A DNA stretch of 64,000 nt from Labilibacter marinus (lineage in GTDB: Bacteria > Bacteroidota > Bacteroidia > Bacteroidales > Marinilabiliaceae): contig NZ_LXYE02000035.1 in assembly GCF_001659685.2 (NCBI RefSeq), forward strand, positions 1 to 64,000. Direction: 5' to 3'. Each line of letters begins with the position of its first letter. The first letter of the stretch is position 1. The translations under genes and the position numbers were made by a program. Under the pieces are notes generated by a model. It did not search any database. It was not told the DNA's origin and saw nothing but the letters and a program-made list of their open reading frames with translations. Below are positions 22,569 to 60,569 of the stretch, in pieces.

Positions 22569-22588
22569 ATTCAATTCTTTCTTATGAT

Positions 22589-39773: not shown

Positions 39774-42167
39774 CTACAATCCTGAAATTATAACATCACT
39801 TTCTCGCTCTTTAGGCATTACGTTTAGTTTAGTGATTTCCCCATTTTTTAGCACCACTTCAACAGTTGTATTCTGAGGTGCATGTAACTTAAAATCAACA
39901 TCCCATTCTTTAGGCCATGCAGGGAATAGCAAAATTTTATCTCCTGCGGTTTGCAAAAGCATCTCCTGAAGCCCAATCATTCCAGAACCGCCCCAATTAT
40001 GGTCAGGCACCCAATCGTGGCCGGGCCCCCAAAAGGTTGGGAAACGACGTTTGCTACTTTTTAGTTTGGCAGTGTTAAAAGATTTTGCATCTTCGGTCAT
40101 TCCCATACGGGCATAAAAAATACCATTCTGATGCCAGCTTACCACATTGCCTTTTGAGAAAGTCCCGTGTTTCCAAGTGTTTTTGAAAATTTCAATTGTG
40201 TCATTATCGGCTCCAAGTTCAAATAGATTAAAAGGAAACAGCGGATAAAACTGAGGGCATTCGCTGTTGCCATAGTGCGACCATGTTTTTGCGGGGTTAA
40301 TAATTTTGTCGCCTTTAACTTCATCATAAGTTAATGGAGGAATGCGTGTTTGCAGCTTTTTGAAATACTGTTTTTCAGTTGCACTCACATATTTTTCGGG
40401 AAGTTGAAGCAAACTATTTACGCAGCTCATTAAACCAGAGCATGCATCAACGGGGTTGGTTGCACCTTTGTAACTCTCACAAGCGGTTGATGGGTATATG
40501 ACCAATTTGCCATTTTCATCCAAGGTATTTCCAGAAGTGTTTTTGTAACGCATTTGGTAATGCTCATCATAAAAACGAATGGAGTTTTTGATGAAATCCA
40601 TGTATTTAGAGATGTCATTTCCAGTAAAACGATGGTATTCTAAAATCATGAAAGAAAACTCTAACTGACTTTCGTAATGAAATTTTATGGAATTATTAAC
40701 CATTGTACCATGTGGTGTATCTTTTCCCCTTCTTCTCCCTTTTGCGTTGGGTTCTGTCCAACCCCAGCCAGCTGCTATGGGTAAGCCAAAGTTTTCCATT
40801 TGCTCGGTAAAACAACATCCACCGTGCCCCCAATATTCTTTTACACGTGTTTTGGCAGATGGCAGGGCACGATGATAAAAATCGAATTGCGGTAGCATTC
40901 CTTCAAAATCGCCCGATTTTAACATAGGCCAGTAAACCAAACGTTGATTTTGTGCGGTAAAACTACCACCGCCCCACGAACGCCAATCGGGAGTACCACA
41001 AGGAGAAAAGAAATCTCCAGGTTTCCAGTTTTTGAATACGAGAATTGGGTCGAATGTAAAATTTCCGCCGTTAAACTTTGTAGGATAATCGCCGTAGTAA
41101 TTACACCCTAATTGATATCTGAATAACTGATAATTGCGCGCAATTTCCCAGCCTTTTGGGTCTTTATCTTTATTTGCAGGGTTTATCCTTATCCTACTTT
41201 TATCCCAAAACTTTAACCACCATGCTTTGGTTTGTTTTTTAGCTACTTTATTTGAAACCGAATTGTTTACAGATGATAGCAGTTCGTTTTCCCATTGGTC
41301 TGCAGTATTTGTTTGGTTTATGTGGGTATATATTTTAATTGTGTGCTTTTTCTTAGGCTTTTTCGATTTAATGTGCCATGCCTTAAAGTCACCATTTGCG
41401 TAATTGCCACCAGACATTCCATTTGTAACATAACCGTCGCCGCACATAAATCCACCAAAAGTTCTACCCTTTTGTGTATTTACAATATCCTCTTCCACAT
41501 TAGTTAAACCCTGCTGTTTTATCATGTAATCAAAAAGCAACTTGTCATCGGGGTTACGGTGGTAAAACATAACTCCATTTTTTTGGAAATCAACAACATC
41601 TTTGTGTCTGTAAATTGAATCGGGGTAACACATCCAGCTAAAACAGCCAAATGCAGGACCATAGTTTTGTTCGGTATTTAAGTGCTTGGTTTCCATTCTC
41701 CAATTCTCATAAGAAACTTGCGCATCTATTTTCATTGTGCTTTCAATATCGAGATGCACTATTGGGTTGAGTGCATCTACCCAAAGGGTCAGCAATACAG
41801 GTTCTTCGTTTACCTTTCCTCTAATTTCTACATGTCCTTCTTTTAGATTGAGTTCTTGCTCAAAAAAATCGGTTTGCTCAAAAGGATTGGGCGTCATTTT
41901 TAATCGGAACCTACCGAGTTTAAAATATTCATTATTTTCGCTAAAGCTTCCACTACGTTGTGCATAAAAAAGCACTTCTCCATTTTCAACCCATATATTA
42001 CAGCCAATGCTATGTCCACCGAACGGCATAGATTCGGAGGAATTTTTGCTCGGCGTTTTCCACAAAATATTATAGTCATCTAACCAATGATTCTCATTAA
42101 TTTCCAACTGCTTGTTACAAGAAACGAATAGGATTATGCTTATAGTTAGAAGAATTTTACCGGTCAT
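39774..42167 (-). CDS. DUF5703 (GH95-like) glycosidase lipoprotein, 797 aa
   Basis: SPII signal (FVSC, Cys16). The N-terminal beta-sandwich has LWKTPSKNSSESMPFGG and LGRFRLKMTPNPF, typical of the DUF5703 N-terminal domain. It is followed by an (alpha/alpha)6 barrel (about residues 300-680) and a C-terminal beta domain with LHAPQNTTVEV. The fold plan is that of GH95 (alpha-L-fucosidase/L-galactosidase), but the GH95 Asn-Asp catalytic motifs are not clearly kept, so the reaction is unknown. It follows the GH95 gene in unit B, and relics of two more family members occur in the window. Confidence 0.78.
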   Translation of the reverse strand: MTGKILLTISIILFVSCNKQLEINENHWLDDYNILWKTPSKNSSESMPFGGHSIGCNIWVENGEVLFYAQRSGSFSENNEYFKLGRFRLKMTPNPFEQTDFFEQELNLKEGHVEIRGKVNEEPVLLTLWVDALNPIVHLDIESTMKIDAQVSYENWRMETKHLNTEQNYGPAFGCFSWMCYPDSIYRHKDVVDFQKNGVMFYHRNPDDKLLFDYMIKQQGLTNVEEDIVNTQKGRTFGGFMCGDGYVTNGMSGGNYANGDFKAWHIKSKKPKKKHTIKIYTHINQTNTADQWENELLSSVNNSVSNKVAKKQTKAWWLKFWDKSRIRINPANKDKDPKGWEIARNYQLFRYQLGCNYYGDYPTKFNGGNFTFDPILVFKNWKPGDFFSPCGTPDWRSWGGGSFTAQNQRLVYWPMLKSGDFEGMLPQFDFYHRALPSAKTRVKEYWGHGGCCFTEQMENFGLPIAAGWGWTEPNAKGRRRGKDTPHGTMVNNSIKFHYESQLEFSFMILEYHRFTGNDISKYMDFIKNSIRFYDEHYQMRYKNTSGNTLDENGKLVIYPSTACESYKGATNPVDACSGLMSCVNSLLQLPEKYVSATEKQYFKKLQTRIPPLTYDEVKGDKIINPAKTWSHYGNSECPQFYPLFPFNLFELGADNDTIEIFKNTWKHGTFSKGNVVSWHQNGIFYARMGMTEDAKSFNTAKLKSSKRRFPTFWGPGHDWVPDHNWGGSGMIGLQEMLLQTAGDKILLFPAWPKEWDVDFKLHAPQNTTVEVVLKNGEITKLNVMPKERESDVIISGL

Positions 42168-42282
42168 TTTTGTTTGTTTTTATAGTTTAAATGGCATCAA
42201 GTATCAATAGTTTACTCTTGTTTAATTATAACTATTAATTGGATGAAGTAGAATAGCTGCAACCCATTATCCTCTTATTAAG

Positions 42283-44583
42283 TTAATTTTGTATTGGTTT
42301 AATCACACATTCTGGCGCCTTATTGCCTGTCCAAAGAATCGCTTCTTCTCCTTTTTTTAGCTTAAGCTCGAATACTCCTATTTCTATCTCCTTTGGTTTT
42401 ATAGCGCTATTAGAATATACTTTTGTATCACTTTTAAAGCCTGGACGTATTTTGCAGGGAGCACCAGCTAAACTTTTAATTCGTACAAACTCTGTTGTTC
42501 CATATTTACGAGTAGCACTTACAAGAAAAGCACCTTCGCCTCTGTAATTATGGAATGTAAAATCTTTCCATTCATCGGGCATGGCAGGAAAAACACGTAT
42601 TACATCTCCCCAACTTTGTAAGGCCATTTCTTGTACGGTAGTAACTCCACCCAACGATGCCTCAAGACAAATTGTATTCGGATGCCAAAGTCCGCTTGGG
42701 TGCAAATCTGGAATTAAATCGTTTATTTCCTTTAAAGCCCAATCTCCTCTTTCAAGAGCAGCTGCCATGGGACCAGCATGCGAAGTAACCATCGCGGGTA
42801 GCCTTTCGTCTAGGTTGCGAAAATGGTCAACGGACTTCTCCAGCAACTCACGCTTTTGTTCATCTTCGGTTGTAACTAAGCGTAGGGGATATATCATGAG
42901 CAAATGTGATGCATGACGGTGGTTTGAAGGACCAATTACTTTACCATCTTTTTTCCCGTAGGCATATCCATTTTTTTTACTAATTGGGTATTCTTCTAAA
43001 CGGTTCAGAATATCTTGCCACTTTGGAGCTAAAGGGTCATTTGCTTCAAGTATTTTGTTTATTTCCAACAAGGTATGGCAGCTCCACTTAATTAAAGCCA
43101 AATCGAAATTTGAATCTTTATACACCCCTGTTTCTGGCGAATAGCCTTTGGGAAGGTGCAATACGCCCTTTTCATCAACCAGTAATTTGCTATAAAGGTT
43201 TAATGACCTACGAAGCAAGGGATATACCGTTTCTCTTAATATACTTTCATCCATTGAGTATCGGTACTGTAGCCAACAATTGCTTAGCACCCAAGGCAGG
43301 CATCCGTAAAGTTGAGAATAACGGGCATCCTGGTCCATTTCGCCAATCATATCTAATGCAGTTGTGATATGCAGAAATGCACAATCCTCACGCCATTCGG
43401 CCGGTTTTACATTGTTGATAAGTGTTTGTGTATTTTTATGTAAATACTCGACCAGGGGTTTACCTAAATCCAATCGGTTGGCGGTATAAACAGGCCATAA
43501 TACAGCTTCAGTATTCCAATCGTTAGTTGCATAAGGCCATCCATTATTAAAATACCACAATCCTTGTGTAGAGGTGAAAACACGTCCAGAACGCGAGTTG
43601 CATCCCAACGTGTATATCATGTGCCAATAATAGTTTTCGATTGTTCGGTCAGGAATGCTTACAAAGCTTTGTTTGTAATATTTATGCCACCAGTTAGCAT
43701 GCAACTCGTCTGATTGAGTCTTTTCTCTTTTGGCAAACTGTTGCACATTTTGTATTGCTTTTTCTGTTGCTTCTGCTTCAGGGTATGTATTTTCGATGGA
43801 TACGATTAACCTTCTGGTATTATTGTATTTAATTTCTTTCCAAGCAGTAGCAAATTGCCCTCCTCCAAAAAGGTTTTGGGTAGCGGTATTAATGCCCTGT
43901 GAACGCTTAGTTTTGGGCCTTGGATTTTTAGGGGGAACTTTTACATTGGCAAATACATCCCCATACATTTGTATGAATTTAGCTTTTCGTTCTTCATTAG
44001 AGGGAGAGCCACCACGACCACTTTTTGCTTCTGCTGGTGTCCATTTCCATTCACAATTTCCCTCTTCACCTTTTCCTGTTATGTCCGTAACAATAATCAT
44101 GTCATCGGCATGGACATAATGTCTGATTTCTACAGCACCTTTGTTAGTTGTTATGGTGCCTTTAAGTTCTGCATTCCATAAGTCTTGCGTCCAATCAATA
44201 GACTGGATGGTTCCTTTAAGCTCTAAATCAAAATCGCCAATTTCGAAACGGTTCCTGGAGTGCGCCGTCCAACCATACTCGTATGTTGGTAAATGGCCAT
44301 GCACATCGGCTCTACTCACGTGCAGACGTAAACGTTTACTTTCTTGCGCTTTTGGATTATTAGCACGCTTTTGGGGTTTAACATAGAGCATTGAACCCAA
44401 CATGGCATTTCCAAAGTACGGGGCATCTTTCCATCCTGATGGGATGTATTTTATTTCTCGCCTGTTCTTTTTCATAAACTCAGGCCAATCAACCTGAACA
44501 TCTAACTTTGTTGTTTTAGGTAAGTTATTGCATGAGAATAGAAGTACTACAGAAACAATTAAGATGTTTTTAATAGTATGCAT
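42283..44583 (-). CDS. GH95-family alpha-L-fucosidase/L-galactosidase-like lipoprotein, 766 aa
   Basis: I prefer the ATG at 44583, which gives a compact lipoprotein signal ending LLFSCNN; two ATGs at 44610 and 44607 would add nine residues. The N-terminal sandwich has FGNAMLGSMLYV. The helical barrel has ATNDWNTEAVLWP, matching the GH95 NxNxE..YWP motif, and HRHASHLLMIYP, matching the HRHLSHL motif. GH95 is inverting and acts on alpha-1,2-L-fucose or alpha-L-galactose, the latter relevant for agaran/porphyran. It lies in unit B after the 1313-aa enzyme gene. Confidence 0.85.
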   Translation of the reverse strand: MHTIKNILIVSVVLLFSCNNLPKTTKLDVQVDWPEFMKKNRREIKYIPSGWKDAPYFGNAMLGSMLYVKPQKRANNPKAQESKRLRLHVSRADVHGHLPTYEYGWTAHSRNRFEIGDFDLELKGTIQSIDWTQDLWNAELKGTITTNKGAVEIRHYVHADDMIIVTDITGKGEEGNCEWKWTPAEAKSGRGGSPSNEERKAKFIQMYGDVFANVKVPPKNPRPKTKRSQGINTATQNLFGGGQFATAWKEIKYNNTRRLIVSIENTYPEAEATEKAIQNVQQFAKREKTQSDELHANWWHKYYKQSFVSIPDRTIENYYWHMIYTLGCNSRSGRVFTSTQGLWYFNNGWPYATNDWNTEAVLWPVYTANRLDLGKPLVEYLHKNTQTLINNVKPAEWREDCAFLHITTALDMIGEMDQDARYSQLYGCLPWVLSNCWLQYRYSMDESILRETVYPLLRRSLNLYSKLLVDEKGVLHLPKGYSPETGVYKDSNFDLALIKWSCHTLLEINKILEANDPLAPKWQDILNRLEEYPISKKNGYAYGKKDGKVIGPSNHRHASHLLMIYPLRLVTTEDEQKRELLEKSVDHFRNLDERLPAMVTSHAGPMAAALERGDWALKEINDLIPDLHPSGLWHPNTICLEASLGGVTTVQEMALQSWGDVIRVFPAMPDEWKDFTFHNYRGEGAFLVSATRKYGTTEFVRIKSLAGAPCKIRPGFKSDTKVYSNSAIKPKEIEIGVFELKLKKGEEAILWTGNKAPECVIKPIQN

Positions 44584-44707
44584 TACATGTATTCGTTTAA
44601 ATAGCATCATTTCTGATTATGTTTTTTATATATTGCTTCATGCAATCCAAAAATAGATTAGCAAAACTGGCATGTTTTTATCGGCTCTTTCAAAATTGAT
44701 TGTTTCA

Positions 44708-47700
44708 CTACTGTAGTTCAAGTTTTTGTATTGCATACCCTTTATCAGACTTAAACTGCAAAATATATAGCCCTGATTGTAAGTCTGAAACTTGAACTGT
44801 ATGTTTTTTTGACTTTTGCTCTTTTTGTTTACAAATTCTACCCTGAATATCAAACAGTTTATAAGTGCCAGCCTCTTTTGATTTTATGGTAAATTGATGT
44901 TTAGCCGGGTTTGGGAATACCTTTAAAGAATTATCAGCTTCAATTACATTTACATTTGTGTTTGACGCTACACTAATATAAATGCTTGTATCGGCTCTCA
45001 ATCCGAGAGCGTTTTCAGCAACTGCTTTTAGCGTATAGTTTCCTGTTGGTAAATTTTGCAACAATGGTTCTTTTTCTCCCCATGAGAATGGAGGTAATAT
45101 TTTTTGCCCAAGCAATGTTTCGTTTACATATAATTTTACGTTTGCAATACCAAAGTTACTAAATGCATCTATTGTTATATTTAAATCAGAACCTTGATAA
45201 AATTCTGAATTATGCAATGGTGTTTGGAAAGATACTGTAGGTTTTTGTGCTGCTGCAACAGAGACTTGCAGGCTTGTTTCGTTGGTAATTCCGGCAAAAT
45301 CTTTAGCTATGGCTTTTAATGTGTAAACTCCTTCTTTCATGTTTTGCATGAGCAAATTGTCTTTTCCCCACTGAAATGGCGCGACTTCTTTTTGCCCTAC
45401 TAATTCGTTGTTTAAGAATAGTTGTACATGCGCAATCCCTGTTTCGCTTTGTGCGCCAATTTTTACAAACAAATTAGAATCGGCCACTGCATAGCTGTTT
45501 TTTATGGGTGACATAAAATAAACCTTGGGTTTTGGCTTGTCCATATTGCTATTAAACAGGCTTATCCCAAAATGATATGTGCGCTTTAAAGTTGTGATGG
45601 CAGATTCTCCAGGTGTGGGTTCAGCATTAAGCAATACACTGCCAGAGGTGCTTCCTTCTTTTCCCCCTGTATACCATATTTCATCGGCTTCAGCTTCTTG
45701 GTCAAAAGAAATAACAGAACTTGAGCCTCCTCCTGTGCCATCGGCATTTGCATCAAGAAAGCCAATGGCTATGGTATCCCCATCGGCCAAAGCTAATTTT
45801 GTTGGAGATGCACTAAATTTGACGGAATTGCTACCAACAACATAGTCCGAGTTTGTGCGAGTAGTACCTATTGCTAGCACAGTAAAATCATTATCTCCAT
45901 TTACTTTTACCACAAATGGTGTGATTGGATCGCTTTTGCGAAGTGCGTAAAAATTGAAATTATCCAGGGTAAAGTTTTGTTCGGCTCCTGTAGTATTAAT
46001 GTAAGTATCGGTTTCGTTTATTACCATGTTGGAACTCCAACCATCGACGGTTTCGCCATTCGAAAAATCATTACCAACTTCGAAAGATGTTACCATACAC
46101 TCTGCTGTTGTAACAGAAACAGATGAAGAAATATCGGATTGGTTTTCATCATTATCAAGTGCAATTACCGAAAAGCTGTAGTTTGTATTACAGGCCAAGT
46201 CGCTTATTTGGGCATAAGTACTCGTTACGGTTTGAAGGTAAACGCCGTCTTGTTTCACAATATATCCAGCCACACCATCTTTGTCTTTTGATGCACTCCA
46301 ACGCAATACACATCCGTTTTTTGAAATATTTGAAACGTTGAGATTTTGTGGAGTTGTAGGGGTTTCTGGCAGCGCTTTGTATGGCGAAATTTTGTAAAAC
46401 AATACGCCAAATTTTGGAATGGTAACCGTGTCGTTTACTGTGGTTCCATTAAGCATATCAGTAATTACAAAAGGAGCTATGTTTTTAGGTTTAATTACAA
46501 GCTCTACTGCCGATTTACCTAAATTTACAATGGATAAAACAGGATTGCCGTTTTCATCTTCAACACATTTCCAGGCACAGGTTTTCTTCCCTATATTACT
46601 TTTTTCACTTATTTTAACTGCTGGGCTATGTTCGCTCTGTTCGATTAATGCGAAGGTTTCATTATACATTTGGTCTAGCGAGCTTACTTTAATTAAGTTC
46701 CCGTCTCCTTTGGTTAAAGGAGTGATCGGCCTTCCATATTCATCTTTTAATAAACTTACATTATCGATAATAACCGTTCCACCATTATTTAAGTACGACT
46801 GAAGTGCATCAAGCTCACTTGGGGTGACAAATTCTGTTTTATGAACAAGTACCACATCCCAGCTGCTGTTGTCTTGCTTTTGTATAATATTTTTGGTCAC
46901 AAAACCCACAGGAACCCCTTCGAAGTTACAACGTTCGTATACTTCATACACATCTTCCATGTGTTCGGCTTTATTGGTTGCCGATGTCTCGGAGTGAAAA
47001 ATACGAATGGGTTTACGTTGCCTTTGCATAGCCATGATAACATCGGCATGGGTATTTAAATCCATGTGAACAGATGCAATTTCGTTGACAATACGTGGTT
47101 GGTGATTGTTTGAACCTGCGTAACCATTGCCAGGATTCGATTTAACCGAGCCGTCGGCCAAACGTGCCCAAAACCAAATTTGGTTGGCGCTTATACCTTG
47201 CGTTGCCGATGCCCAGAAACATGCCCTTGCATATTCTGGTTTTTGATATAAGTCTCTAGACCTTCCGCCTGATAAATAATGTGTTTCGGAATTGAAAGAC
47301 AATTTTTCAGGACTCACTGATTTTAAGAAATCCATGCTCATAAAAATATCGCGCCATTCGAATCCATAATATTCTTGCCATTCGTGTTCTCCCCACATTG
47401 GAGCATCTTGTGCTCCTGCATCATGTCCAATAATGTCGCTCAACTCAGTTAATGCTTCTACATCAATCCCTTGACCACGATAACTACCTGCCCAATGGTT
47501 TGGTATAATTTTTAGATGCACTTTTCCATTAGGGTCATATTTCCTTACAATTCCTTTCAGGTTGGTATACCATTGTGTAACCCTAAAGCAATTAAATGTA
47601 ATCCAATCGTACCATTTTGGAGTTCCAATTAAACTTCTGTCTATAGGAATCTCTATTGTAACATCGTCAAAACTGGCAAAACTGCTTCCCCATAAAGTGT

Positions 47701-48649
47701 TTAGTGCTTGGATGGAGGCATGTTTATCCTTAAGCCACAATTTAAACTTTTCTTTTGTATGTGAAGTTACTTCGCCACTTGCCCAATCCACTTTATCGCC
47801 CGTTTTTGTGGTGTAAAAGTGAGGCTCGTTACATAACATATAGCCTAATTCGCTATTTTTTTTACCAGCAGTAAGGGGCACAGTACTTTTTAGTAATAAC
47901 TCATTTAGTTCTAAGGCACCGGTATTATCAATATCATAAACCGTATACCGTTCGATAGGAAGCCTAAAATCAGCTCCATATTCTTCCAAAGTCCAATCTA
48001 ATACACCTTTATTTCCCAAAAAAACATACCCTATCGAATTGCTTTCCCTTTCGTTCAGGTTTTTCATCGTCCAATAGTTAATATCACCATCGGCATTTGT
48101 CACTTTACTTTGGTCCAAATACACCCCATCGAAATTACCATAATATTCGCTCAATTCGCTTGTGCTGGGTTTCCAAATATAATCTTCGATAAATACCGGC
48201 TTGCCATTATGGGTTAATTGGTCTCCTTCATGCTTTATGTTATTCCAATCCAGTTTTTGAATTGGTTTTCTTAAATAGTCTCCACTTTTTAATTTATGCA
48301 AAAAATCAATGGCATCATCGAGCATAATAATTATTTCATCCCTTTCGAATTTTGGCAATATTGTGGCCATCTCTTCTGCATTGTCTTTATAGCGAGAAAC
48401 CATTTTAAAATGCCCTGTGTTTTCAGCGATATTTTCTTCATCCCATTCTGCATATTTTAAAAAAACTTCTGCTGTTCGGATGGTCATTTTTTCTTTGGTC
48501 GCATCTAAGCCCATGCCTTCTACCTCAACAATTAAACTGTTCAGGGTGTCTATCTTTTGTCGTGCTAATGTTTCTTCGGGCGAAACAGAAAAAGCTTGCT
48601 GTAAGCCTAGTACTAAACTAATTATAAGTAAATATATTTTTTGATGCAT
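44708..48649 (-). CDS. GH42-like secreted enzyme with FN3, Ig repeats and T9SS domain, 1313 aa
   Basis: Paralog of the 855-aa enzyme with the same N-terminal signal peptide, helical domain (KMTIRTAEVFL) and barrel. The acid/base lies in MLCNEPHFY and the likely nucleophile in SFNSETHYL. After the trimerisation-like domain it adds an FN3 domain (about residues 765-850), a beta-sandwich of unknown type (about 855-1040), two homologous Ig-like repeats (each with PF.WG...LLQN) and a T9SS sorting domain at the end. The additions look like spacers or carbohydrate-binding units for a surface or secreted enzyme. It may be the polymer-cutting enzyme of unit B (inference). Confidence 0.75.
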   Translation of the reverse strand: MHQKIYLLIISLVLGLQQAFSVSPEETLARQKIDTLNSLIVEVEGMGLDATKEKMTIRTAEVFLKYAEWDEENIAENTGHFKMVSRYKDNAEEMATILPKFERDEIIIMLDDAIDFLHKLKSGDYLRKPIQKLDWNNIKHEGDQLTHNGKPVFIEDYIWKPSTSELSEYYGNFDGVYLDQSKVTNADGDINYWTMKNLNERESNSIGYVFLGNKGVLDWTLEEYGADFRLPIERYTVYDIDNTGALELNELLLKSTVPLTAGKKNSELGYMLCNEPHFYTTKTGDKVDWASGEVTSHTKEKFKLWLKDKHASIQALNTLWGSSFASFDDVTIEIPIDRSLIGTPKWYDWITFNCFRVTQWYTNLKGIVRKYDPNGKVHLKIIPNHWAGSYRGQGIDVEALTELSDIIGHDAGAQDAPMWGEHEWQEYYGFEWRDIFMSMDFLKSVSPEKLSFNSETHYLSGGRSRDLYQKPEYARACFWASATQGISANQIWFWARLADGSVKSNPGNGYAGSNNHQPRIVNEIASVHMDLNTHADVIMAMQRQRKPIRIFHSETSATNKAEHMEDVYEVYERCNFEGVPVGFVTKNIIQKQDNSSWDVVLVHKTEFVTPSELDALQSYLNNGGTVIIDNVSLLKDEYGRPITPLTKGDGNLIKVSSLDQMYNETFALIEQSEHSPAVKISEKSNIGKKTCAWKCVEDENGNPVLSIVNLGKSAVELVIKPKNIAPFVITDMLNGTTVNDTVTIPKFGVLFYKISPYKALPETPTTPQNLNVSNISKNGCVLRWSASKDKDGVAGYIVKQDGVYLQTVTSTYAQISDLACNTNYSFSVIALDNDENQSDISSSVSVTTAECMVTSFEVGNDFSNGETVDGWSSNMVINETDTYINTTGAEQNFTLDNFNFYALRKSDPITPFVVKVNGDNDFTVLAIGTTRTNSDYVVGSNSVKFSASPTKLALADGDTIAIGFLDANADGTGGGSSSVISFDQEAEADEIWYTGGKEGSTSGSVLLNAEPTPGESAITTLKRTYHFGISLFNSNMDKPKPKVYFMSPIKNSYAVADSNLFVKIGAQSETGIAHVQLFLNNELVGQKEVAPFQWGKDNLLMQNMKEGVYTLKAIAKDFAGITNETSLQVSVAAAQKPTVSFQTPLHNSEFYQGSDLNITIDAFSNFGIANVKLYVNETLLGQKILPPFSWGEKEPLLQNLPTGNYTLKAVAENALGLRADTSIYISVASNTNVNVIEADNSLKVFPNPAKHQFTIKSKEAGTYKLFDIQGRICKQKEQKSKKHTVQVSDLQSGLYILQFKSDKGYAIQKLELQ

Positions 48650-48672: not shown

Positions 48673-50235
48673 CTACTTAATTATTGAAAATTTCGGATAA
48701 CCTCCATTTTTCCAATCGCCATCGCACTCTTTCAACAGTATCGATTTTAACGCTTCCATTTTTTCGGGAAATCGCGCATTCAATACTTTCTCTTCCCTGT
48801 AATCATCTTTTAGATTATACAATTGAAAAACTTTTTTGCGGGTGTAATATCTTAGCTTCCAACCATCATTGGTAACAATGGCTGGTCCCATTACCGAAGC
48901 GAAAACGGTATATTTATGCTCCTCGCTTTTGTTGCCCAATAAGGTTTGGGCATACGATTTACTGTCTTTTCCTTTTACAATTTCACCGCCTGTGAGTTCA
49001 GCAATGGTGTTTAGCAAATCATAGTTGGCCACCAGTTGGTCCGACTGAGTTCCAGGTTTTATTTTTCCTTTCCAATACCAAATAAGAGGCACACGCACAC
49101 CACCTTCCCAGTTGGAACGTTTAAGTCCGGCCATGCCATCGTTTCCATCAAAAACATCTCCGTTTATTTCGCTATAAAACTTCGTATGGATATCATCAAA
49201 TTTACCTCCATCTAATGTGGCACGCCCATGTTCTGTTTTTCCTGCTTGACGGGTGTACACCTCATGCCCATTATCGCCCGTAAAAATGATAATGGTATTT
49301 TCTAAAATGCCCAGTTCTTTGCATTTTGCATAGATTTTACCCACATCTTCATCCAGAATTTTCACCATGGTTCCGTATTCTTTTTCAAATTCTGTAAGTG
49401 CTTTATTGTTCTTTAATTCAGGATGCACTTCAGGTACAGATATTGGGCCATGAGGCAACTGTGATGGAAGATGTATGAAAAATGGCTGACCTGTTTTTTG
49501 AGGATTGTTGTTTTCCATAAAAGCCAATAGTTTGTCCATAATTATTTTGTCGGAATAAACTGCTTTCCCCGTCATATCCCAGCGCTTTTTATATTCTTCG
49601 GGAGATTCGAACGAAGCCGTTTTTCCACAGTCAGCATGGGTGTTCCCTTCAATGGATACAACCTCTCCGTTTTCAAATAAAAAGGGTGGATAAAATCCAT
49701 GGCAGCGCACATGGTCGTAGAAACCAAAATGGTAATCCCAACCATGACTTTTAACTCTTTCGGCCGTAGTTGCAAACCCCCATTCTAATTTGCCAAATTC
49801 GGCCGTTATGTAGCCTTGCCTTTTGGCCACATCGGCTAAAAATACTTCACCTTCGTTTTCGGGTGGAGCCAGTTTATGTATCTTCTCTTCAATTTGGTTA
49901 TATGTTAAACTTTTTCCCAATTCTTTGTAAATACCAGCATCGGTAAGGCTCCATATTTGTTTGTGGCAATCGTGCATTCCGTTGAGCAAACTAGCACGGG
50001 CAGGTGCACAAAACATACATCCATACACATTTGAAAAGCGCATTCCTTCATTGGCCAGTTTATCAATATTTGGTGTTGTTAAATGCTTTTGGCCATAAGA
50101 GCTTAACATGCCACGCCCTAAATCATCGGCATAAATGAGGATAATATTGGGGTTTTGTTGTGTTGTTTTGCTTTTGGGATTACATGCGAGCAAAGCTGTA
50201 AACATGCAGTAGAGCAGTATTTTTAGTGGTTTCAT
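48673..50235 (-). CDS. S1-family sulfatase lipoprotein, 520 aa
   Basis: SPII signal (LLAC, Cys18). PNIILIYADDLGRGML supplies the metal-binding Asp pair. The formylglycine site is Cys76 in FCAPARASLL (C-x-P-x-R with Ala in the third position). NTIIIFTGDNGHE completes the metal site. It should act on sulfated sugars in the periplasm; the regiospecificity is unknown. It lies between GH2f and the 1313-aa enzyme, 23 bp from the latter, so co-transcription is likely. It differs enough from the sulfatase at 26216 to belong to another S1 subfamily (inference). Confidence 0.93.
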   Translation of the reverse strand: MKPLKILLYCMFTALLACNPKSKTTQQNPNIILIYADDLGRGMLSSYGQKHLTTPNIDKLANEGMRFSNVYGCMFCAPARASLLNGMHDCHKQIWSLTDAGIYKELGKSLTYNQIEEKIHKLAPPENEGEVFLADVAKRQGYITAEFGKLEWGFATTAERVKSHGWDYHFGFYDHVRCHGFYPPFLFENGEVVSIEGNTHADCGKTASFESPEEYKKRWDMTGKAVYSDKIIMDKLLAFMENNNPQKTGQPFFIHLPSQLPHGPISVPEVHPELKNNKALTEFEKEYGTMVKILDEDVGKIYAKCKELGILENTIIIFTGDNGHEVYTRQAGKTEHGRATLDGGKFDDIHTKFYSEINGDVFDGNDGMAGLKRSNWEGGVRVPLIWYWKGKIKPGTQSDQLVANYDLLNTIAELTGGEIVKGKDSKSYAQTLLGNKSEEHKYTVFASVMGPAIVTNDGWKLRYYTRKKVFQLYNLKDDYREEKVLNARFPEKMEALKSILLKECDGDWKNGGYPKFSIIK

Positions 50236-50363: not shown

Positions 50364-52952
50364 TTATGGCTTTATAATTTCTACAAAACCTACATCCAAT
50401 ACGCCACCTTTTTCGGGCGTATTGGCAATTATCGAAATGGTATGTTTTCCTGGTTTTAGTTCGCCAAGTCGCTCTTTTACTGGAATGAGACGATAATCTT
50501 CAAAACCTTCTTCAAGGGTTAGAATCGCTTTCTCATCTATGGCAATTGAAATTCTTCCGGCATTTTCTTTAGACAATGCGGCTGTTTGTTTTAAGTAGAT
50601 ATGAGGATTAATAATGGAAGAACCTGTAACTTCAAATGTTTTTGTAAGATATACCATTTTACCCGGCCAATTTCCACTCGATGTTTGCGTTTTGGTAGAT
50701 AATGGCAGCTGTACTTCATCCCAAGTAGAACTTGAACTCCAAACATCTAATGAGGCATTAAAAGTTGCATTTATTTCTTCGCCTGGAATTCCTGAGCCTC
50801 GCTTCTTTTTGGTTTCCTCTTGTTCTTCCCTAAACAGCGCATTCCACTTATCGCTGTACTTTACCAGTTCTTTTACCCGTTTGTTAGTATGCATATCTTC
50901 TACAAAGGTCCAAGTAGCGCTTTCTTGATACGATTTGCCATCTTGATTTGAACTTACAACAATGTTATTGTTACCTGCTTTTAAGGGAATATTGTTCCAC
51001 CTAAAAACACCGTTTTCTGCATTTTTAAGTGTTCCATAATCTACCCCGTCTACCGCTAATTTTACCGCATCTAAATTTGAGTATACGGTAACTTCCGCTT
51101 CATCATTCAGACGTATATCAAATTGTTTATAGGCTAAATGAAAAACAGGTTCTTTTTTCCAGTTGGCTTTATAAAAGTAATAGGCATCTTTTTTGTCGGT
51201 GTGGTTTTCTCCCACCAAAGCTTTGTCATGCAAGTAGGTAGCACTTCCCTGGTCGTAACCTGGAACAAGAAACTCTGTTAAAGTCCATATAAAGGTACCC
51301 CACAGCCATGGTCGTTTTTGTATTGCTTTCCAGTGCTCCTCGTGACTATAGTTATAAAAATCGACAGGGTGGAATTGGTCTTGATTATAAGGTGCTGCTT
51401 TTCGGTTTTCATCAAAATGATGAACAGTTCCGCCACCGCCATATTCTGTAATGCCGTATTTACGGTTGGGGAATTCTTTGCGCATGTTATCCAACCAGGT
51501 AAAGTCACCAGGGCTACCGGGGTATGCATTCCAATACCAACCCTGATAGCGATTCCAACCCGAAAGGTCGGCAACATCATTACGCTCACCGGCTTTCCAG
51601 CTTACCCCACAAGTAAGACGTGAAGGATCAATTTCTTTGGCAATGCCATTCAGTTCGTTTACTAAAGGGATACAACTAAAGCCCCTCTTAACGTCACTTG
51701 TAATTTCGTTAAACAAGCCCCAAATGGCCACAGAAGGATGATTGATTTGCTGATACACCATTTCATGAATTTGCTGCTTGCAATTATCTGTAAAAGCTTC
51801 TGTTTCATTAAACCAACCAATAAATGCTATTTCTGAAAAAGCTATAATACCGTGTTTATCGCATAAATCTAACCTGTATTTACTGTGCGGATAATGAGAG
51901 AAACGCATGGCATTCAATCCGATATCAAGCATAAGTTCCAAATCTTCATCAAAGTGCTCGGGGCGCATAGCCGAACCAACTCCCGGGTAATATTGATGCT
52001 GGGCAGCTCCATAAAGTGGATAAGCATTCCCATTTAAAAAGAAACCTTTATCCCTGTCTACATGTACATTTTTGAAGCCCGTAGTTTCTGTAATTTCATC
52101 GAGCAAATGGTTATTGTTGTACAGCTCTACTTTTACAGTATAAAGGGCCGGATTCTCCAAGCCATTCCATAGTTCAGGGTTTTCAACAGTAATGGGTATG
52201 TTTATGTGCCACTGTCCTTGCTCTTTACGTTTAACCTTAAAAGTTTCTTTGGCAACAAGCTTTTTGTTCTCATTATAAATCGCACAAACCACTTTTGATT
52301 TTCCACTTAAATTCTGGGAACTATTTAAAACGGTTTCGATTTCTAATTCTGCTTTTTCTTTAGTTATGTTCTTTGGTTTACAGTACACACCTGTTGTCGC
52401 ATAATGTACAGGGCTGATACAAAATTTTTCTTTAACAATAAGTGAAACGGGGCGCGTGATGCCTCCGAACTTGATATATCCACCACTTAAAGGTGTAATT
52501 TCGGGGTTGTATTTATTGGATACACTTACCGAAATAAGATTTTCAGAACCATACTTTACCTTATCGGTAATTTCAAAGGCGAAAGCAGAGTAGCCTCCTT
52601 TATGATTCCCAATTCTCTCGCCATTTATATACACATTGGCATCGATGTACACCGCATCAAAATGTAAAAAGAGCCTTTTGCCTTTTAGTTTATTATCCAC
52701 CATTAGACTTTTTCGGTACCAAGCTTGGCCGGTATAACTCACATCCACTTTTTGCTCGCGATAAACCTCTGCAGACCCAGATGGGTTATAGGTGTGTGGC
52801 AATTCAACTTCTTTCCATTCTTTTAAATCGACTGTTTTATCCAAAGCGTTTTCAGCTTCTCCTTTTTTAAAAAACCAATTGCTGTTTATGTTTTGTTGTG
52901 CCTTTATAGAAAGCCCCAAAACAAATAGCGCGATAAATATTCGTGTTTTCAT
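50364..52952 (-). CDS. GH2 enzyme with extra C-terminal sandwich (GH2f), 862 aa
   Basis: Signal peptide (about residues 1-18). Sugar-binding domain with QAWYRKSL, Ig-like domain, then barrel with NAMRFSHYPHSKYRLDLCD. The acid/base is Glu416 in GLFNEIT and the nucleophile is Glu503 in GITEYGG. After the Ig domain a linker and a galactose-binding-like sandwich (about 710-862) follow, which may bind the polymer. The motifs differ from all the other GH2 copies here, so a separate specificity is likely. It is in unit B, downstream of GH29b across a REPIN-like repeat. Confidence 0.88.
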   Translation of the reverse strand: MKTRIFIALFVLGLSIKAQQNINSNWFFKKGEAENALDKTVDLKEWKEVELPHTYNPSGSAEVYREQKVDVSYTGQAWYRKSLMVDNKLKGKRLFLHFDAVYIDANVYINGERIGNHKGGYSAFAFEITDKVKYGSENLISVSVSNKYNPEITPLSGGYIKFGGITRPVSLIVKEKFCISPVHYATTGVYCKPKNITKEKAELEIETVLNSSQNLSGKSKVVCAIYNENKKLVAKETFKVKRKEQGQWHINIPITVENPELWNGLENPALYTVKVELYNNNHLLDEITETTGFKNVHVDRDKGFFLNGNAYPLYGAAQHQYYPGVGSAMRPEHFDEDLELMLDIGLNAMRFSHYPHSKYRLDLCDKHGIIAFSEIAFIGWFNETEAFTDNCKQQIHEMVYQQINHPSVAIWGLFNEITSDVKRGFSCIPLVNELNGIAKEIDPSRLTCGVSWKAGERNDVADLSGWNRYQGWYWNAYPGSPGDFTWLDNMRKEFPNRKYGITEYGGGGTVHHFDENRKAAPYNQDQFHPVDFYNYSHEEHWKAIQKRPWLWGTFIWTLTEFLVPGYDQGSATYLHDKALVGENHTDKKDAYYFYKANWKKEPVFHLAYKQFDIRLNDEAEVTVYSNLDAVKLAVDGVDYGTLKNAENGVFRWNNIPLKAGNNNIVVSSNQDGKSYQESATWTFVEDMHTNKRVKELVKYSDKWNALFREEQEETKKKRGSGIPGEEINATFNASLDVWSSSSTWDEVQLPLSTKTQTSSGNWPGKMVYLTKTFEVTGSSIINPHIYLKQTAALSKENAGRISIAIDEKAILTLEEGFEDYRLIPVKERLGELKPGKHTISIIANTPEKGGVLDVGFVEIIKP

Positions 52953-53162: not shown

Positions 53163-54755
53163 CTATGGTACTTTGCTTTTAAACTCCAGTTTTACAGGAT
53201 ACGCGAACTTATAATCTGGCTCATTGGGCATTGTAATCTCCAGCCCTTTTGGCGTTTGTTTCCATTTTAATTTCTTTTTTGAGCCCATAAGCGAAACTTT
53301 TTCAAGTTGGGATAAATCAGCTGTAGCCAAGGTTTTTATGCGCATCGTTTCGCCGGGCCATTCCAAAGCTGTTGCGTATAAAATGGTATTGGCCTTATTG
53401 CGTGTAAAACGAATGTCTTCTGCAGTGGTTTCGTATTTTTTATGTCCGTGCTCATCTTTTTCGAGCCAATGTTCGCCTAACTCTCCAAAAACCTCATACG
53501 GACGAGTTGCGTACACTGCTTCGCCACACACTTTTAACCAAGCTCCCATTTCGCGGATAAACTGCTTTTGGTCTTCGGGAAATGTACCATCTCCTTTTGG
53601 CGCAATGGCAAGCATCAAAACTCCACGTTTGCTTATTATGTCCATAAACTGGTCAATTACCATATTTACGGGTTTTATCTCAATTCCCTCAGCATAGCCC
53701 CAATTGTGACCAAAATAAATGCTTTCGTCGGTTTGCCATACCATGTTGTGGATGTGGTCAAATGCACCATGTTCAAAATCGCGCACGGCACTTCCTTCTG
53801 CATACATTTTGCTTTTATAATTTATAACCACGTTGGGCTTCCCAAATTCTCCATTATTCCACTTTACAGCTTGGTTGTAATAATGCGCCCCAAATGCCAA
53901 TCGGTAAGGTTCCCAATGTGTAGTTTTAAAGCCCCAATCAAAATAATGGAGGTCGGGTTGATAGAGGTCGGTGACTTCTTTGGTGCGTTGAAGCCAACGT
54001 TCTAAATCTCGTTTACTTGGCTGTATGGTTGTTCCCCAGCGTGTACGCGCTAAAAAATGATTACGCTCTTCTCCTTTAAAAATACGAACCGTATCCATGC
54101 TGCGCGGAAAAATTGGATTACCGTATAAATCCTGATTAGCCGTATCTACAGCATCATAACGGTTGACGTGGTTCCACTGAAAAAAACAGTAATTCCATGC
54201 CGAGTGATTTGATACACCAAACTTAAGCCCTTGCTTGCGTGCTTCAGTTGCTAGTTCGCCTACTATATCACGCTTTGGCCCCATGTTTACCGAATTCCAT
54301 TTTGTGGATGGAGAATTCCACATACAAAAGGCATCGTGAAACACGGCAAGTGTTGTAAAATACTTTGCTCCACCATCTTTACATATGGAAATCCATTCTG
54401 CAGCATCAAATTTTTTTGCGGTAAATAGGGGTATTAAATCTTTGTATCCGAAATCCTCAGGTGGTCCGTAAGTTTCGTGATGATGAAGGTGTGTTGCCAA
54501 ACCTTGATTATTTCTTGAACTTTGTCCTTTTTGGCAATACATCCATCGGCCATACCATTCGGCCGCATGGTCACCCTTGAATGCAGGAACTGAGTATACA
54601 CCCCAAATTGGCCAAAAACCAAGTTTGGCATCTTCATACCATTCGGGGGCTTCATAATTTTGAAGCGATTCCCAATTGGGCGTATAAGTGTTTTGAGCGC
54701 TGCAAAAAACAGACAAGAAGAAAAACACTGCAACACTGTATATTATCTTATTCAT
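53163..54755 (-). CDS. GH29-like enzyme with altered fucose pocket (GH29b), 530 aa
   Basis: I chose the ATG at 54755; a TTG at 54779 would lengthen the signal peptide (residues 1-21, ending CSAQ). The GH29 barrel keeps Glu66-Trp67 and the nucleophile Asp in HYFDWGF. His50 of GH29a is Ile50 (WPIWG) and His139 is Phe139 (AVFHDAF). In characterised GH29 enzymes these histidines contact the fucose hydroxyls, so the substrate may differ: sulfated or anhydro L-sugar, or L-galactose. It starts unit B, divergent from the membrane-bound regulator, and its 3' end and downstream flank closely match those of GH29c. Confidence 0.88.
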   Translation of the reverse strand: MNKIIYSVAVFFFLSVFCSAQNTYTPNWESLQNYEAPEWYEDAKLGFWPIWGVYSVPAFKGDHAAEWYGRWMYCQKGQSSRNNQGLATHLHHHETYGPPEDFGYKDLIPLFTAKKFDAAEWISICKDGGAKYFTTLAVFHDAFCMWNSPSTKWNSVNMGPKRDIVGELATEARKQGLKFGVSNHSAWNYCFFQWNHVNRYDAVDTANQDLYGNPIFPRSMDTVRIFKGEERNHFLARTRWGTTIQPSKRDLERWLQRTKEVTDLYQPDLHYFDWGFKTTHWEPYRLAFGAHYYNQAVKWNNGEFGKPNVVINYKSKMYAEGSAVRDFEHGAFDHIHNMVWQTDESIYFGHNWGYAEGIEIKPVNMVIDQFMDIISKRGVLMLAIAPKGDGTFPEDQKQFIREMGAWLKVCGEAVYATRPYEVFGELGEHWLEKDEHGHKKYETTAEDIRFTRNKANTILYATALEWPGETMRIKTLATADLSQLEKVSLMGSKKKLKWKQTPKGLEITMPNEPDYKFAYPVKLEFKSKVP

Positions 54756-55123
54756 AAATAGATTTTTTAATATTTTCAATTTAATAAGCCTGTTAAGAGT
54801 TTGTACAACTACTTCGTTATTGCTTATTTTCTAATTCCTCAATTTTAATATTCATGATTTTGACCGGAAATAAGTTCGTATAGTCAAATATGCCACATTC
54901 CATTTTTAAACACGAAGAAATTGGCTGTTCAACGGTAGGTGAAACGGTTATCACAAACATATTCAACTCATATGCTAACACATACAAAGCTTTTTTGACA
55001 AATCGAAACCCTATTAAAATGTGGTGAATTAAACGGTAAATCAACAGTTAAATAGCTTGTTTTTACTTATGAATAATGTTAATTTCGATGAATTAATATT
55101 ACAGCGTATTCAACGAATTACAC
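54756..55123. promoter_or_regulatory. Divergent control region between GH29b and the membrane regulator
   Basis: The 368 bp contain no convincing gene. On the minus strand TATGTTTG (54961-54954) matches TAnnTTTG, with a TTTG 23 bp upstream, giving a possible GH29b promoter with a long leader. A 75-codon minus-strand frame (54817-55044) ends in a plausible-looking peptide but has no recognised family. The regulator's own binding site would be expected here. Confidence 0.45.
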
Positions 55124-56278
55124 ATGCTCAATCCTGAAAAGAAAAAAGAACTACTTCAACAAATATTAGACAGCGATATCTTTAAAAAATCACCTTCAAG
55201 TTCGGCCTTGTTACGTTATCTGGTTGAAAAGAATATTGAGGGCGCTCATTTAAAAGAAAATGTGATAGAAGTAGAGCTTTATGGAGACAGGCAAGATTCT
55301 GACGTCATAAACCCCAGGGTACGCGTAAATATATATCACCTCAGGAAAAAGCTAACAGCTTATTACCAAGGTGAGGGAAAAAATAACGAGTATGAAGCAA
55401 TAATTAAAAAGGGGCAATATAATTTAAAGTTTAAACAAAGGTTTTCGAAAAAAGAAGAACGAAAGTCGAGGCCAAAATTTGATGCTAAATTCGTACCCTA
55501 TTTTGTTATTGTTCTCTTGATTGCAATGCTTGTATTCCAAAATTTACCAAAAAAACCTTTGACGTTATGGGGAGGGCTTATTTCAAACAATTACAAAACA
55601 ACACTTTATGTTTCTGACATTTATGGGTTAATAGGACGGACGGACGAAAATAAGCCATATTTTATAAAATACTTTCACTACAACTCAAAAGAAGAATACC
55701 AGGAACATGTACAAAAGCAGGACAGCAGTAAAAACCTTCGACTATCTAATTATTCATACATTACAGGTGATGGGGCACTTGCCTGTAAAAATATTATGCG
55801 ACTTTTTGGACAGTACAATTCCGACTTTAACATAGAGTTTTCGAGCAGGGCACAATATAGCCGAATAAAGGAAGAGGATTTTATTTACGTAGGTGTCCTT
55901 ACAAATCCTATGTTTACAGGTTTATTTAATTCATCAAATCCATATTGTAAAATAACAGAAAAGAATAATTTAGAAATAAAATCTCACTCCCTTATAAACG
56001 ATACAACTATTAATATTTTATCGTCAGGATTAGGCGACTTTGATTATGCGATTGTTTCTCTCGTTCCGGGGCCTCACAATACAACGCAGTTCTACTTTTT
56101 TTCACAACATGAGATTGGAAACAGGGCAATGATTGAGCATTTTACCAATTTGAATTCAATTTCTGAGTTTAGTAAACACCACTTAAAAGCGAATAAATAC
56201 TTTACTGCTGTTTACAAGGTGTATGGCAAAGAACGTATTGACCTTACATTTAAAGAGATTGCAGTACTTCCTTTCTAA
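55124..56278 (+). CDS. Membrane-tethered winged-helix regulator, 384 aa
   Basis: The N-terminal 105 residues have a winged-helix look: SSALLRYLVEKNIEG, KENVIEVELYG, then NPRVRVNIYHLRKKL and a KKGQYNLKF wing. The pattern resembles the OmpR/ToxR-like domain found in some membrane-bound regulators of Acidobacteria. A basic linker leads to one transmembrane helix (about 123-139), then a periplasmic domain of about 245 residues with no family I recognise. This is the topology of ToxR/CadC: DNA binding inside, sensing outside. It is divergent from unit B and convergent with unit A, so it is well placed to control both. No kinase or HTCS gene is present. Confidence 0.7.
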   Translation: MLNPEKKKELLQQILDSDIFKKSPSSSALLRYLVEKNIEGAHLKENVIEVELYGDRQDSDVINPRVRVNIYHLRKKLTAYYQGEGKNNEYEAIIKKGQYNLKFKQRFSKKEERKSRPKFDAKFVPYFVIVLLIAMLVFQNLPKKPLTLWGGLISNNYKTTLYVSDIYGLIGRTDENKPYFIKYFHYNSKEEYQEHVQKQDSSKNLRLSNYSYITGDGALACKNIMRLFGQYNSDFNIEFSSRAQYSRIKEEDFIYVGVLTNPMFTGLFNSSNPYCKITEKNNLEIKSHSLINDTTINILSSGLGDFDYAIVSLVPGPHNTTQFYFFSQHEIGNRAMIEHFTNLNSISEFSKHHLKANKYFTAVYKVYGKERIDLTFKEIAVLPF

Positions 56279-58967: not shown

Positions 58968-60569
58968 CTATTCTTTGGACGATGGCACTTTTCTTTTAAA
59001 CTCCAATTTTACAGGATACGCGAACTTATAATCTGGCTCATTGGGCATTGTAATCTCCAGCCCTTTAGGGGTTTGTTTCCATTTTAATTTCTTTTTTGAG
59101 CCTATAAGCGACACGTTTTCTAGTTGGGACAAATCAGCTGTAGCCAAGGTTTTTATGAGCATAGTTTCGCCGGGCCACTCCAAAGCGGTTGCGTATAAAA
59201 TGGTATTGGCCTTATTGCGTGTAAAACGAATGTCTTCAGGTGTAGTTTCGTATTTTTTCTGATTGTGGTGATCACGTTCGTTCCAACGATCTCCGAGTTC
59301 CCCAAAAACCTCATACGGGCGGGTGGCGTACACGGCTTCGCCGCATATTTTAAGCCAGGCACCCATTTGGCGAATAAACTGTTTTTGGTCTTCAGGAAAT
59401 GTTCCATCGGCTTTTGGGGCAATGGCCAACATGAGTACACCTCGTTTACTGATAACATCCATAAACTGATCAATAACCATATTGACAGGCTTAATCTCAA
59501 TGCCTTCTGCATAGCCCCAATTATGGCCAAAATAAATGCTCTCGTCAGTTTGCCACACCATGTTGTGGATGTCGTCAAATGCTCCATGCTCAAAATCGCG
59601 AACTGCAGCGCCCTCTTTCCATGTAGACCATCCTTTGTAATTGATTACTACGTTGGGCTTCCCATATTCACCCTTCCCGGCTTCAATGGCATTATTGTAA
59701 TAAAAGGCACCAAACTGTTGGCGGTAAGGCTCCCAAACTGTTGGATTAAATCCCCAATCAAAATAGTGGAGGTCGGGTTTGTAGAGGTCACTTACTTCTT
59801 TGGTACGTTCCAACCAGCGGTCAAAATCGCGTTGGCTAGGCTGTACCAAACCTCGCGAACGTGGAATCCATGTTTTACGCCCCTCTCCTTTGGCTATGCG
59901 CACCGTATCAGCACTTTTTGCCACTATCGGGGTGCCGTATAAATCCTGGTTGTCGGCGTTTATAGCATCGTAACGGTTTATATGGTTCCATTGAAAAAAG
60001 GCGTAGTTCCATGCCGAGTGGTTAGACACTCCAAACTTTAAACCCTGTTTACGCGTTTCGGATGCCAATTCCGCAACAATATCACGTTTAGGCCCCATTT
60101 CTACAGAGTTCCATTTTGAGGTTGGAGAATTCCACATGCAAAACGCATCATGAAAAACGGCAAGCGTCGTAAAATATTTGGCACCACCTTCTTTGCAAAG
60201 GGATATCCATTCTTTAGCATTAAATTTTTCGGCTGTAAACATAGGAATAAAATCCTTGTACCCGAATTCTTCTGGTGGGCCGTAGGTTTTGTTATGATAC
60301 AGATGGGTTGCAAGCGCCTGATTATTGCGAGAGCTTTGGTCTTTCTGGCAATACATCCAACGGCCATACCACTCTGCCGCATGGTCGCCTTTAAATGCGG
60401 GAACTGAATATACTCCCCAAATGGGCCAGAAACCAAGTTTGGCATCTTCATACCACTCCGGGGCTTCGTAATTTTGAAGCGATTCCCAACTGTCCGTATA
60501 GATGTCTTGTGCATTGCAGCACACAGACATTAGAAAAAACAGTACAATACTGAACATTATCTTACTCAT
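58968..60569 (-). CDS. GH29-like enzyme with altered fucose pocket (GH29c), 533 aa
   Basis: Signal peptide (residues 1-21, ending CNAQ). The barrel keeps Glu66-Trp67 and the nucleophile Asp in HYFDWGF, but carries Ile50 (WPIWG) and Phe139 (AVFHDAF) instead of the two fucose-binding histidines, as in GH29b. Its middle is closer to GH29a (WIPRSRG, NAIEAGKGE, GWSTWKEGAAVRDFE), while the N-terminal third and the last third follow GH29b, so it looks mosaic. It should share the substrate type of GH29b. It lies 24 bp after GH2g in unit A. Confidence 0.88.
   Translation of the reverse strand: MSKIMFSIVLFFLMSVCCNAQDIYTDSWESLQNYEAPEWYEDAKLGFWPIWGVYSVPAFKGDHAAEWYGRWMYCQKDQSSRNNQALATHLYHNKTYGPPEEFGYKDFIPMFTAEKFNAKEWISLCKEGGAKYFTTLAVFHDAFCMWNSPTSKWNSVEMGPKRDIVAELASETRKQGLKFGVSNHSAWNYAFFQWNHINRYDAINADNQDLYGTPIVAKSADTVRIAKGEGRKTWIPRSRGLVQPSQRDFDRWLERTKEVSDLYKPDLHYFDWGFNPTVWEPYRQQFGAFYYNNAIEAGKGEYGKPNVVINYKGWSTWKEGAAVRDFEHGAFDDIHNMVWQTDESIYFGHNWGYAEGIEIKPVNMVIDQFMDVISKRGVLMLAIAPKADGTFPEDQKQFIRQMGAWLKICGEAVYATRPYEVFGELGDRWNERDHHNQKKYETTPEDIRFTRNKANTILYATALEWPGETMLIKTLATADLSQLENVSLIGSKKKLKWKQTPKGLEITMPNEPDYKFAYPVKLEFKRKVPSSKE

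Follow-up and report, generated by a model that had tools for sequence, protein, structure and literature searches.

To our knowledge, many carbohydrate clusters of environmental Bacteroidota are still without an assigned regulator. Among the closest described systems, SusR of Bacteroides, as presented in PMC3878776, sits in the membrane, senses on the periplasmic side, binds DNA on the cytoplasmic side and activates operons for polysaccharide utilisation; its DNA-binding domain is C-terminal, and the predicted sites lie 67 or 77 bp apart. The HTCS are likewise membrane sensors controlling polysaccharide clusters. Transmembrane regulators are abundant in Bacteroidota generally, according to PMC10269533, and PMC13316777 describes ChiS and TfoS of Vibrio cholerae as acting when chitin is present. 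The DNA-binding domain of CadC, a ToxR-like protein, has the OmpR-type topology b1-b2-b3-b4-a1-a2-a3-b5-b6-b7, as given in PMC5430869.

We analysed a stretch of 64,000 nucleotides of the Labilibacter marinus genome (contig NZ_LXYE02000035.1, positions 1 to 64,000), hereafter the window, which contains a regulator gene divergent from a run of carbohydrate genes (Table 1). We conclude that its product is probably a one-component, sugar-responsive transmembrane activator of the divergent carbohydrate operon, and a member of a family not previously named.

Table 1. Position and supporting evidence of the regulator, its neighbours and the candidate control sites in the window
Feature	Position	Strand	Basis
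DUF5703 protein, GH95 enzyme and GH42-like multidomain protein, co-directional with unit A	39774..48649	-	
Sulfatase, presumed third gene of unit A	48673..50235	-	PF00884, E=9.2e-47
GH2 enzyme, presumed second gene of unit A	50364..52952	-	PF02836 and PF02837
GH29 alpha-L-fucosidase, first gene of divergent unit A	53163..54779	-	PF01120, E=1.5e-81; ORF from TTG 54779
Candidate -7 box CATATTTG of the divergent GH29 operon, one mismatch to TAnnTTTG	54885..54892	-	within family-preferred spacing
Putative operator 1, AACGGT-N6-AACGGT, AACGGTAGGTGAAACGGT, 12-bp-spaced direct repeat	54931..54948	+	one of five exact genome matches
Alternative -7 box TATGTTTG, exact TAnnTTTG, between both operators	54954..54961	-	
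Putative operator 2, AAACGGTAAATCAACAGTTA, degenerate second copy	55031..55050	.	best 23-bp motif match in the region
Transmembrane transcription regulator gene, 384 aa	55124..56278	+	intact ORF, ATG start; 11 paralogues in the same genome; 79 homologous loci elsewhere
Predicted winged-helix DNA-binding domain, residues 1-105	55124..55438	+	AlphaFold DSSP; Trans_reg_C matches in the family; conservation
Single transmembrane helix, residues 121-139, N-in/C-out by the positive-inside rule	55484..55540	+	AlphaFold model; hydrophobicity and charge bias
Alpha/beta sensor domain without named family, residues 146-384	55559..56275	+	model; no Pfam/NCBIfam match; no PDB match at E<=0.001

The AlphaFold model of the whole protein (mean pLDDT 91.6, pTM 0.69) predicts, by DSSP, an N-domain made of helices 4-15, 18-21, 24-38, 45-53 and 65-82 followed by strands 90-94 and 101-105. 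Helix 65-82 stands in the place of the recognition helix, which it likely is, and the two strands form a two-stranded wing (likely residues 90-105). Beyond the wing, the model contains one helix (121-139) and then an alpha/beta domain (147-383); modelled alone (146-384), this C-domain reached a pLDDT of 91.9 and a pTM of 0.89. The window protein itself matches Pfam Trans_reg_C weakly (E=0.023, 15.2 bits; cut-off 26.2) whereas 62/80 family members match it at E<=0.1 (best E=1.3e-6); hence the winged-helix call is sound, yet the domain is divergent. Across the 80 members, the most hydrophobic 19-residue segment scored from 1.19 to 3.25 (median 2.31), and Lys and Arg were commoner on the N-side than on the C-side of the hydrophobic helix in 68, equal in 7 and fewer in 5. 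This bias predicts an N-in, C-out orientation, and the C-domain would thus be periplasmic. Residues 61-105 are the most conserved part of the protein (mean pairwise identity 0.49, versus 0.27 for the sensor), as would be expected if the DNA site is kept while the ligand varies.

No Pfam or NCBIfam family matched the C-domain, in the window protein or in the family, and Foldseek searches of the PDB with the whole model and with the C-domain alone gave no match at E<=0.001. Searching the PDB by sequence returned only a chance ferritin match for the single sequence and nothing for the profile. As fold relatives of the C-domain, BcsB (best Foldseek row, E=4.4e-3, TM 0.30; other BcsB rows in the C-domain search, TM up to 0.38) and, ranked behind it, the N-domains of GH67/GH115 were rejected as too weak to name the fold, and these matches were not taken as evidence for sugar binding. 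An earlier note, made from the sequence of the window, had read the protein as an N-terminal winged helix, one transmembrane helix and a C-terminal domain of no recognised family; the model and the searches bear out all three, the last with a confident alpha/beta prediction.

The divergence of the gene from a GH29-GH2-sulfatase run (unit A), claimed in the same note, is real. The GH29 gene likely starts at the ATG at 54755, and the DUF5703, GH95 and GH42-like genes beyond the sulfatase may belong to one transcript with unit A. The description of the regulator as guarding a PUL holds for the presence of a carbohydrate cluster but not for a SusC/SusD pair, none of which adjoins the regulator (the nearest found within the window lies at 20910-25657); 'CAZyme/sulfatase cluster' is therefore the safer term. 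Unit B (56322 onward) and the regulator converge, so only unit A can have its promoter in the shared intergenic region; no exact tandem operator occurs within unit B, whose control by the regulator we do not claim. The GH29 fucosidases at 53163-54779 and 58968-60569, which flank the regulator region, are 81% identical to each other and are probably, to judge from this identity, products of a duplication; a third GH29 of the window (10617-12218) shares 61-67% identity with these two. An AraC-type regulator (38549-39430) in the same cluster adjoins a gene for a sugar transporter (37064-38455), and the carbohydrate region of the window may thus have two regulators. A protein in which DUF5107 is fused to TPR repeats (30692-33982) is also encoded within the cluster.

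The L. marinus genome carries 12 copies of the regulator, the 11 paralogues being 27-41% identical to the query. Scanning genome contigs yielded 93 confirmed relatives, the best 80 of which represent 79 distinct loci; as the scan used one peptide pattern, this family set is a sample. Seventy of the 79 loci belong to Bacteroidota, including Lutibacter, Zobellia, Labilibaculum, Saccharicrinis, Flammeovirga and Echinicola, and the other nine to Melioribacteraceae/Ignavibacteriae (4), KSB1 (3), a gammaproteobacterial MAG (1) and one further bacterium. The family is uncommon: 5/148 genomes of an even phylum sample matched, among them L. marinus and one whose match was confined to the N-domain, and a search with the C-domain within the order matched 2/119 genomes, again including L. 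marinus. In another genome, a 527-aa protein (L103:301-1884) has a related N-domain followed by TPR-like sequence, judged as such by eye, in place of the membrane helix and sensor; the DNA-binding domain is therefore common to another architecture. Elsewhere (L046:9935-12332), two family members lie tail to tail, the second being 96% identical to the protein of locus L059.

The earlier note expected homologues to be linked to carbohydrate genes, and this expectation was borne out. The upstream neighbour is divergent in 12/12 cases in L. marinus and in 78/79 of the other loci, and this neighbour is a carbohydrate enzyme or sulfatase in 9/12 and 55/79, respectively. The L. marinus neighbours are GH29 (3), GH2 (3), GH88 (1), GH43 (1) and sulfatase (1), the remainder being two Gfo/Idh/MocA oxidoreductases and one protein without family (L018). 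In the 79 loci, where classes rest on clustering and on Pfam matches of representatives, most cluster members not having been scanned singly, the neighbours are GH2 (20), 3-keto-disaccharide hydrolase (8), GH115 (5), GH88 (4), sulfatase (4), GH3 (3), GH28 (3), GH31 (2), GH43 (2, one of them below the cut-off) and one each of agarase-like protein, GH141, alginate lyase and glucuronate isomerase. The other neighbours are Gfo/Idh/MocA proteins (7), TonB receptors (6), PSD1/planctomycete-cytochrome proteins (5) and PhyH (1); two further neighbours are without family (L072, L074) and three are unclassified (L052, L058, L083), the L058 neighbour matching no family when scanned. The PSD1/PSCyt (planctomycete-cytochrome type) genes that adjoin the regulator in L089, L090, L092, L094 and L097, in Arenibacter and Membranihabitans, were assigned by a scan for L089 and by similarity for the other four; their position suggests that PSD1/PSCyt proteins are under carbohydrate-type control.

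GH29, GH2 and sulfatase genes make up a few percent of the 6-Mb L. marinus genome (gene count estimated), yet they provide 7/12 of the divergent neighbours. The genome gave 27 match rows for GH29, 40 for GH2 and 99 for sulfatase, some rows being pieces of one gene, and the sulfatase and GH29 rows point to a life on sulfated, fucose-rich polysaccharides. On the regulator tree (FastTree, with some long branches), the neighbour class changes 36 times (n=87), whereas 300 shuffles gave 60.8 changes on average and never fewer than 55. Neighbour class thus tracks the regulator tree beyond shuffled labels, but it changes often, so that the neighbour cannot serve to identify the ligand.

What is new here is a putative operator common to the divergent intergenic regions of the family. 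From the intergenic regions before 90 of the 91 regulators (all but L095, whose gene overlaps the neighbouring one), we removed near-duplicates and those shorter than 60 bp, which left 78. The 8-mers AACGGTTA and AACCGTTA are present in 41/78 and 40/78 of these regions, where dinucleotide shuffles give an expectation of 1.1 for each. The operator takes one of two forms, either a tandem repeat with 12-bp spacing, TAACGGT-N5-TAACGGTTAA, or a palindrome, TTAACSGTTAA. The core AAC[CG]GTTA occurs in 47/78 regulator regions, and AACGGT-N6-AACGGT in 14/78 versus 0/456 other intergenic regions of the same loci. We also trained motifs on 66 regions of other genomes and applied them to L. marinus against 66 control regions: the 23-bp motif placed 10 of the 12 own regions above all controls (Mann-Whitney p=4e-8), the regions of paralogues L012 and L016 failing, and the 15-bp motif placed 5/12 above the best control while 7/12 failed (p=4e-7), these p-values being optimistic since the sets behind the motif and spacing counts were only partly cleared of related sequences.

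Could the shared motif be an element that carbohydrate operons have in general, part of the promoter or a site for a global regulator, rather than the operator of this protein? Of the eight exact TTAACSGTTAA sites in L. marinus, four are intergenic, and two of these are away from any copy of the regulator (one before a GH2 gene at L115, one in another intergenic region at L118), as such an element would have it; two lie beside family members and four inside ORFs. However, AAC[CG]GTTA is found in only 7 of the 456 other intergenic regions of the same loci (divergent 3/85, co-directional 4/286, convergent 0/85). Moreover, the strict form of the operator, tandem in 18 and palindromic in 16 of 34 members, switches twice on the regulator tree, a count made with no shuffle control. 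We therefore regard a general element as highly improbable and retain the motif as the putative operator of the regulator.

At the scale of the 6.03-Mb genome, AACGGT-N6-AACGGT has five exact sites: three beside family members, one before a GH88 gene and one inside an ORF. Two of the four found outside the window region precede the two nearest paralogues (C29:96618 and C28:32401). Allowing up to one mismatch, the pattern is not enriched genome-wide (33 matches versus 56 for the reversed control), nor is the exact palindrome TTAACSGTTAA (8 sites versus 11); only context and exactness therefore discriminate operators. A large regulon was rejected, given the few exact sites and a one-mismatch pattern below its reversed control.

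The remote GH88 gene (L120:5265-6371; PF07470, E=5.4e-87) has its tandem operator upstream at L120:5106 (C28:207105). The spacer of this operator reads ACTTAT, and it reads ACTTGT at the paralogue whose own neighbour is a GH88 gene; going by the site, the remote gene is probably a target in trans. The palindrome at L115:4944, TTAACGGTTAA, precedes the GH2 gene at L115:5066-7990, away from the 12 family members. The tetramer GTTA recurs at -4, +8 and +19 from the operator centre, which hinted at a third half-site. The corresponding three-repeat form, CCGTTA-N7-GTTAAA, was rejected and the two-repeat form kept: it has 7 exact sites, and 60 at up to one mismatch versus 61 for the reversed control. 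Two of the seven exact sites are the operators of paralogues L009 and L010; two of the other five (C39, C40) and the one-mismatch sites C6 and C69 are all inside ORFs and look like chance.

Bacteroidota promoters carry a -7 box with the consensus TAnnTTTG. We located such boxes in the 68 of the 78 regions that have an operator site of at least 10 bits. At offsets of 46-51 bp from the operator centre toward the divergent gene, there are 30 boxes with up to one mismatch (shuffle mean 5.4, maximum 13 in 300 shuffles) and 11 exact boxes, versus 0.39 in shuffles. This range was chosen after a first look; in the selection-free form of the comparison, which takes the best 6-bp window anywhere, the 30 boxes stand against at most 16 in shuffles. 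Toward the regulator, no peak of -7 boxes was found (4 versus 3.7 in shuffles). Activation is thus the best reading, since the operator keeps a preferred distance to the -7 box that follows it on the side of the divergent gene, with no such preference on the side of the regulator. The opposite sign of control, in which the same membrane protein keeps the divergent operon (and its own gene) repressed until freed by a signal, finds some footing in the position of the operator, whose median distance is 68.5 bp from the regulator start versus 115.5 bp from the divergent gene (68 sites); such proximity to the regulator's own start would fit autorepression. The spacing peak, however, concerns the -7 boxes of the divergent gene and puts the operator about 50 bp upstream of them, outside the core promoter and therefore in the position of an activator, so that repression appears quite unlikely.

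Within the window, a conserved predicted site lies in the divergent region upstream of the regulator, in two putative copies. With the 23-bp motif derived from the other genomes, operator 2 ranks higher than every one of the 66 control regions, and it outscores operator 1. The candidate box CATATTTG is 51 bp from operator 1, centre to centre, while the exact box TATGTTTG is outside the preferred spacing from operator 2; only operator 1 with the one-mismatch box fits. With its best-scoring operator off-peak from the exact box, the window is therefore no clean example by itself.

Activation as the preferred reading implies a mechanism in which we infer physical binding, activation, the ligand and a dimerisation switch. 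The cytoplasmic winged helix would bind the TAACGGT repeats of the divergent intergenic region, as 12-bp tandem or as palindrome TTAACSGTTAA, presumably as a dimer or more. Bound just upstream of the divergent promoter, it would recruit or position RNA polymerase for the carbohydrate operon, which in the window would be the GH29-GH2-sulfatase unit. The periplasmic domain would steer this activity through the single membrane helix. The earlier note suggested that the periplasmic signal may be an oligosaccharide; most likely it would be an oligosaccharide or a monosaccharide freed from the substrate, the binding of which would change dimerisation. A membrane activator could instead answer to a non-sugar signal, namely a partner protein, envelope stress, an ion state or proteolysis. 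The C-domain has no recognisable ligand-binding family, and transmembrane regulators controlled by partners exist, such as ToxR with ToxS and CadC with LysP in the account of PMC10269533. Nevertheless, the copies adjoin differing enzyme clusters across paralogues, which is hard to reconcile with one common envelope signal, and we consider a non-sugar signal unlikely. The view of the protein as a one-component transmembrane regulator of the divergent operon, put forward in the earlier note, is well supported by the linkage, the shared operator and the promoter spacing.

A broader proposal stands about an even chance of being right: the protein would belong to a separate, widely scattered family of membrane-anchored activators of carbohydrate operons, which would combine a winged helix lacking the N-terminal beta-sheet with a new periplasmic sensor fold, read freed sugars directly and have spread from cluster to cluster (12 copies here) with a near-constant operator. 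Since the protein signature and the operator are both recognisable, target operons would become predictable from sequence, and the remote GH88 gene with its near-identical operator shows how members of the regulon could be recognised in this way. In its sensor domain, the family would offer a new candidate among the folds that sense carbohydrates in the periplasm, and the preferred operator-promoter spacing makes activation directly testable.

Among the matches listed in searches of the open-access literature, we found no description of the family or of its operator; those for CadC or ToxR together with PUL terms were only reviews on engineered bacteria, and those for the text of the operator motif looked unrelated by title. 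Compared with known systems, the protein as predicted fits the definition of the transmembrane transcription regulators, which join a DNA-binding domain to one or more membrane helices in the same chain; part of this class acts in polysaccharide responses. The domain order, an N-terminal cytoplasmic winged helix, a single helix and a C-terminal periplasmic sensor, is predicted to be that of the ToxR-like proteins (ToxR, CadC, TcpP, TfoS), and to this extent the ToxR/CadC-like label of the earlier note was apt. Strict OmpR-type membership is not supported: in the model, the DNA-binding domain begins with helices, without the N-terminal strands of the CadC/OmpR type, and hhalign gave no match between the N-domain and the DNA-binding domain of CadC. 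For these two reasons we did not file the family as ToxR-like; it also differs in having another sensor domain and in its linkage, in Bacteroidota, Ignavibacteria and KSB1, to carbohydrate operons. A search of the window protein detected none of the domains of an HTCS (histidine kinase, receiver, AraC). The idea that a transmembrane one-component sensor would be new for PULs needs trimming, since SusR, by its description in PMC3878776, is already a membrane sensor and a precedent for a one-component protein of this kind running a PUL. Compared with SusR as described, however, this family has its DNA-binding domain at the N-terminus and operator repeats 12 bp apart. If our proposal is true, polysaccharide loci would have in this family a fourth type of membrane-bound control, in addition to SusR, HTCS and ECF/anti-sigma systems.
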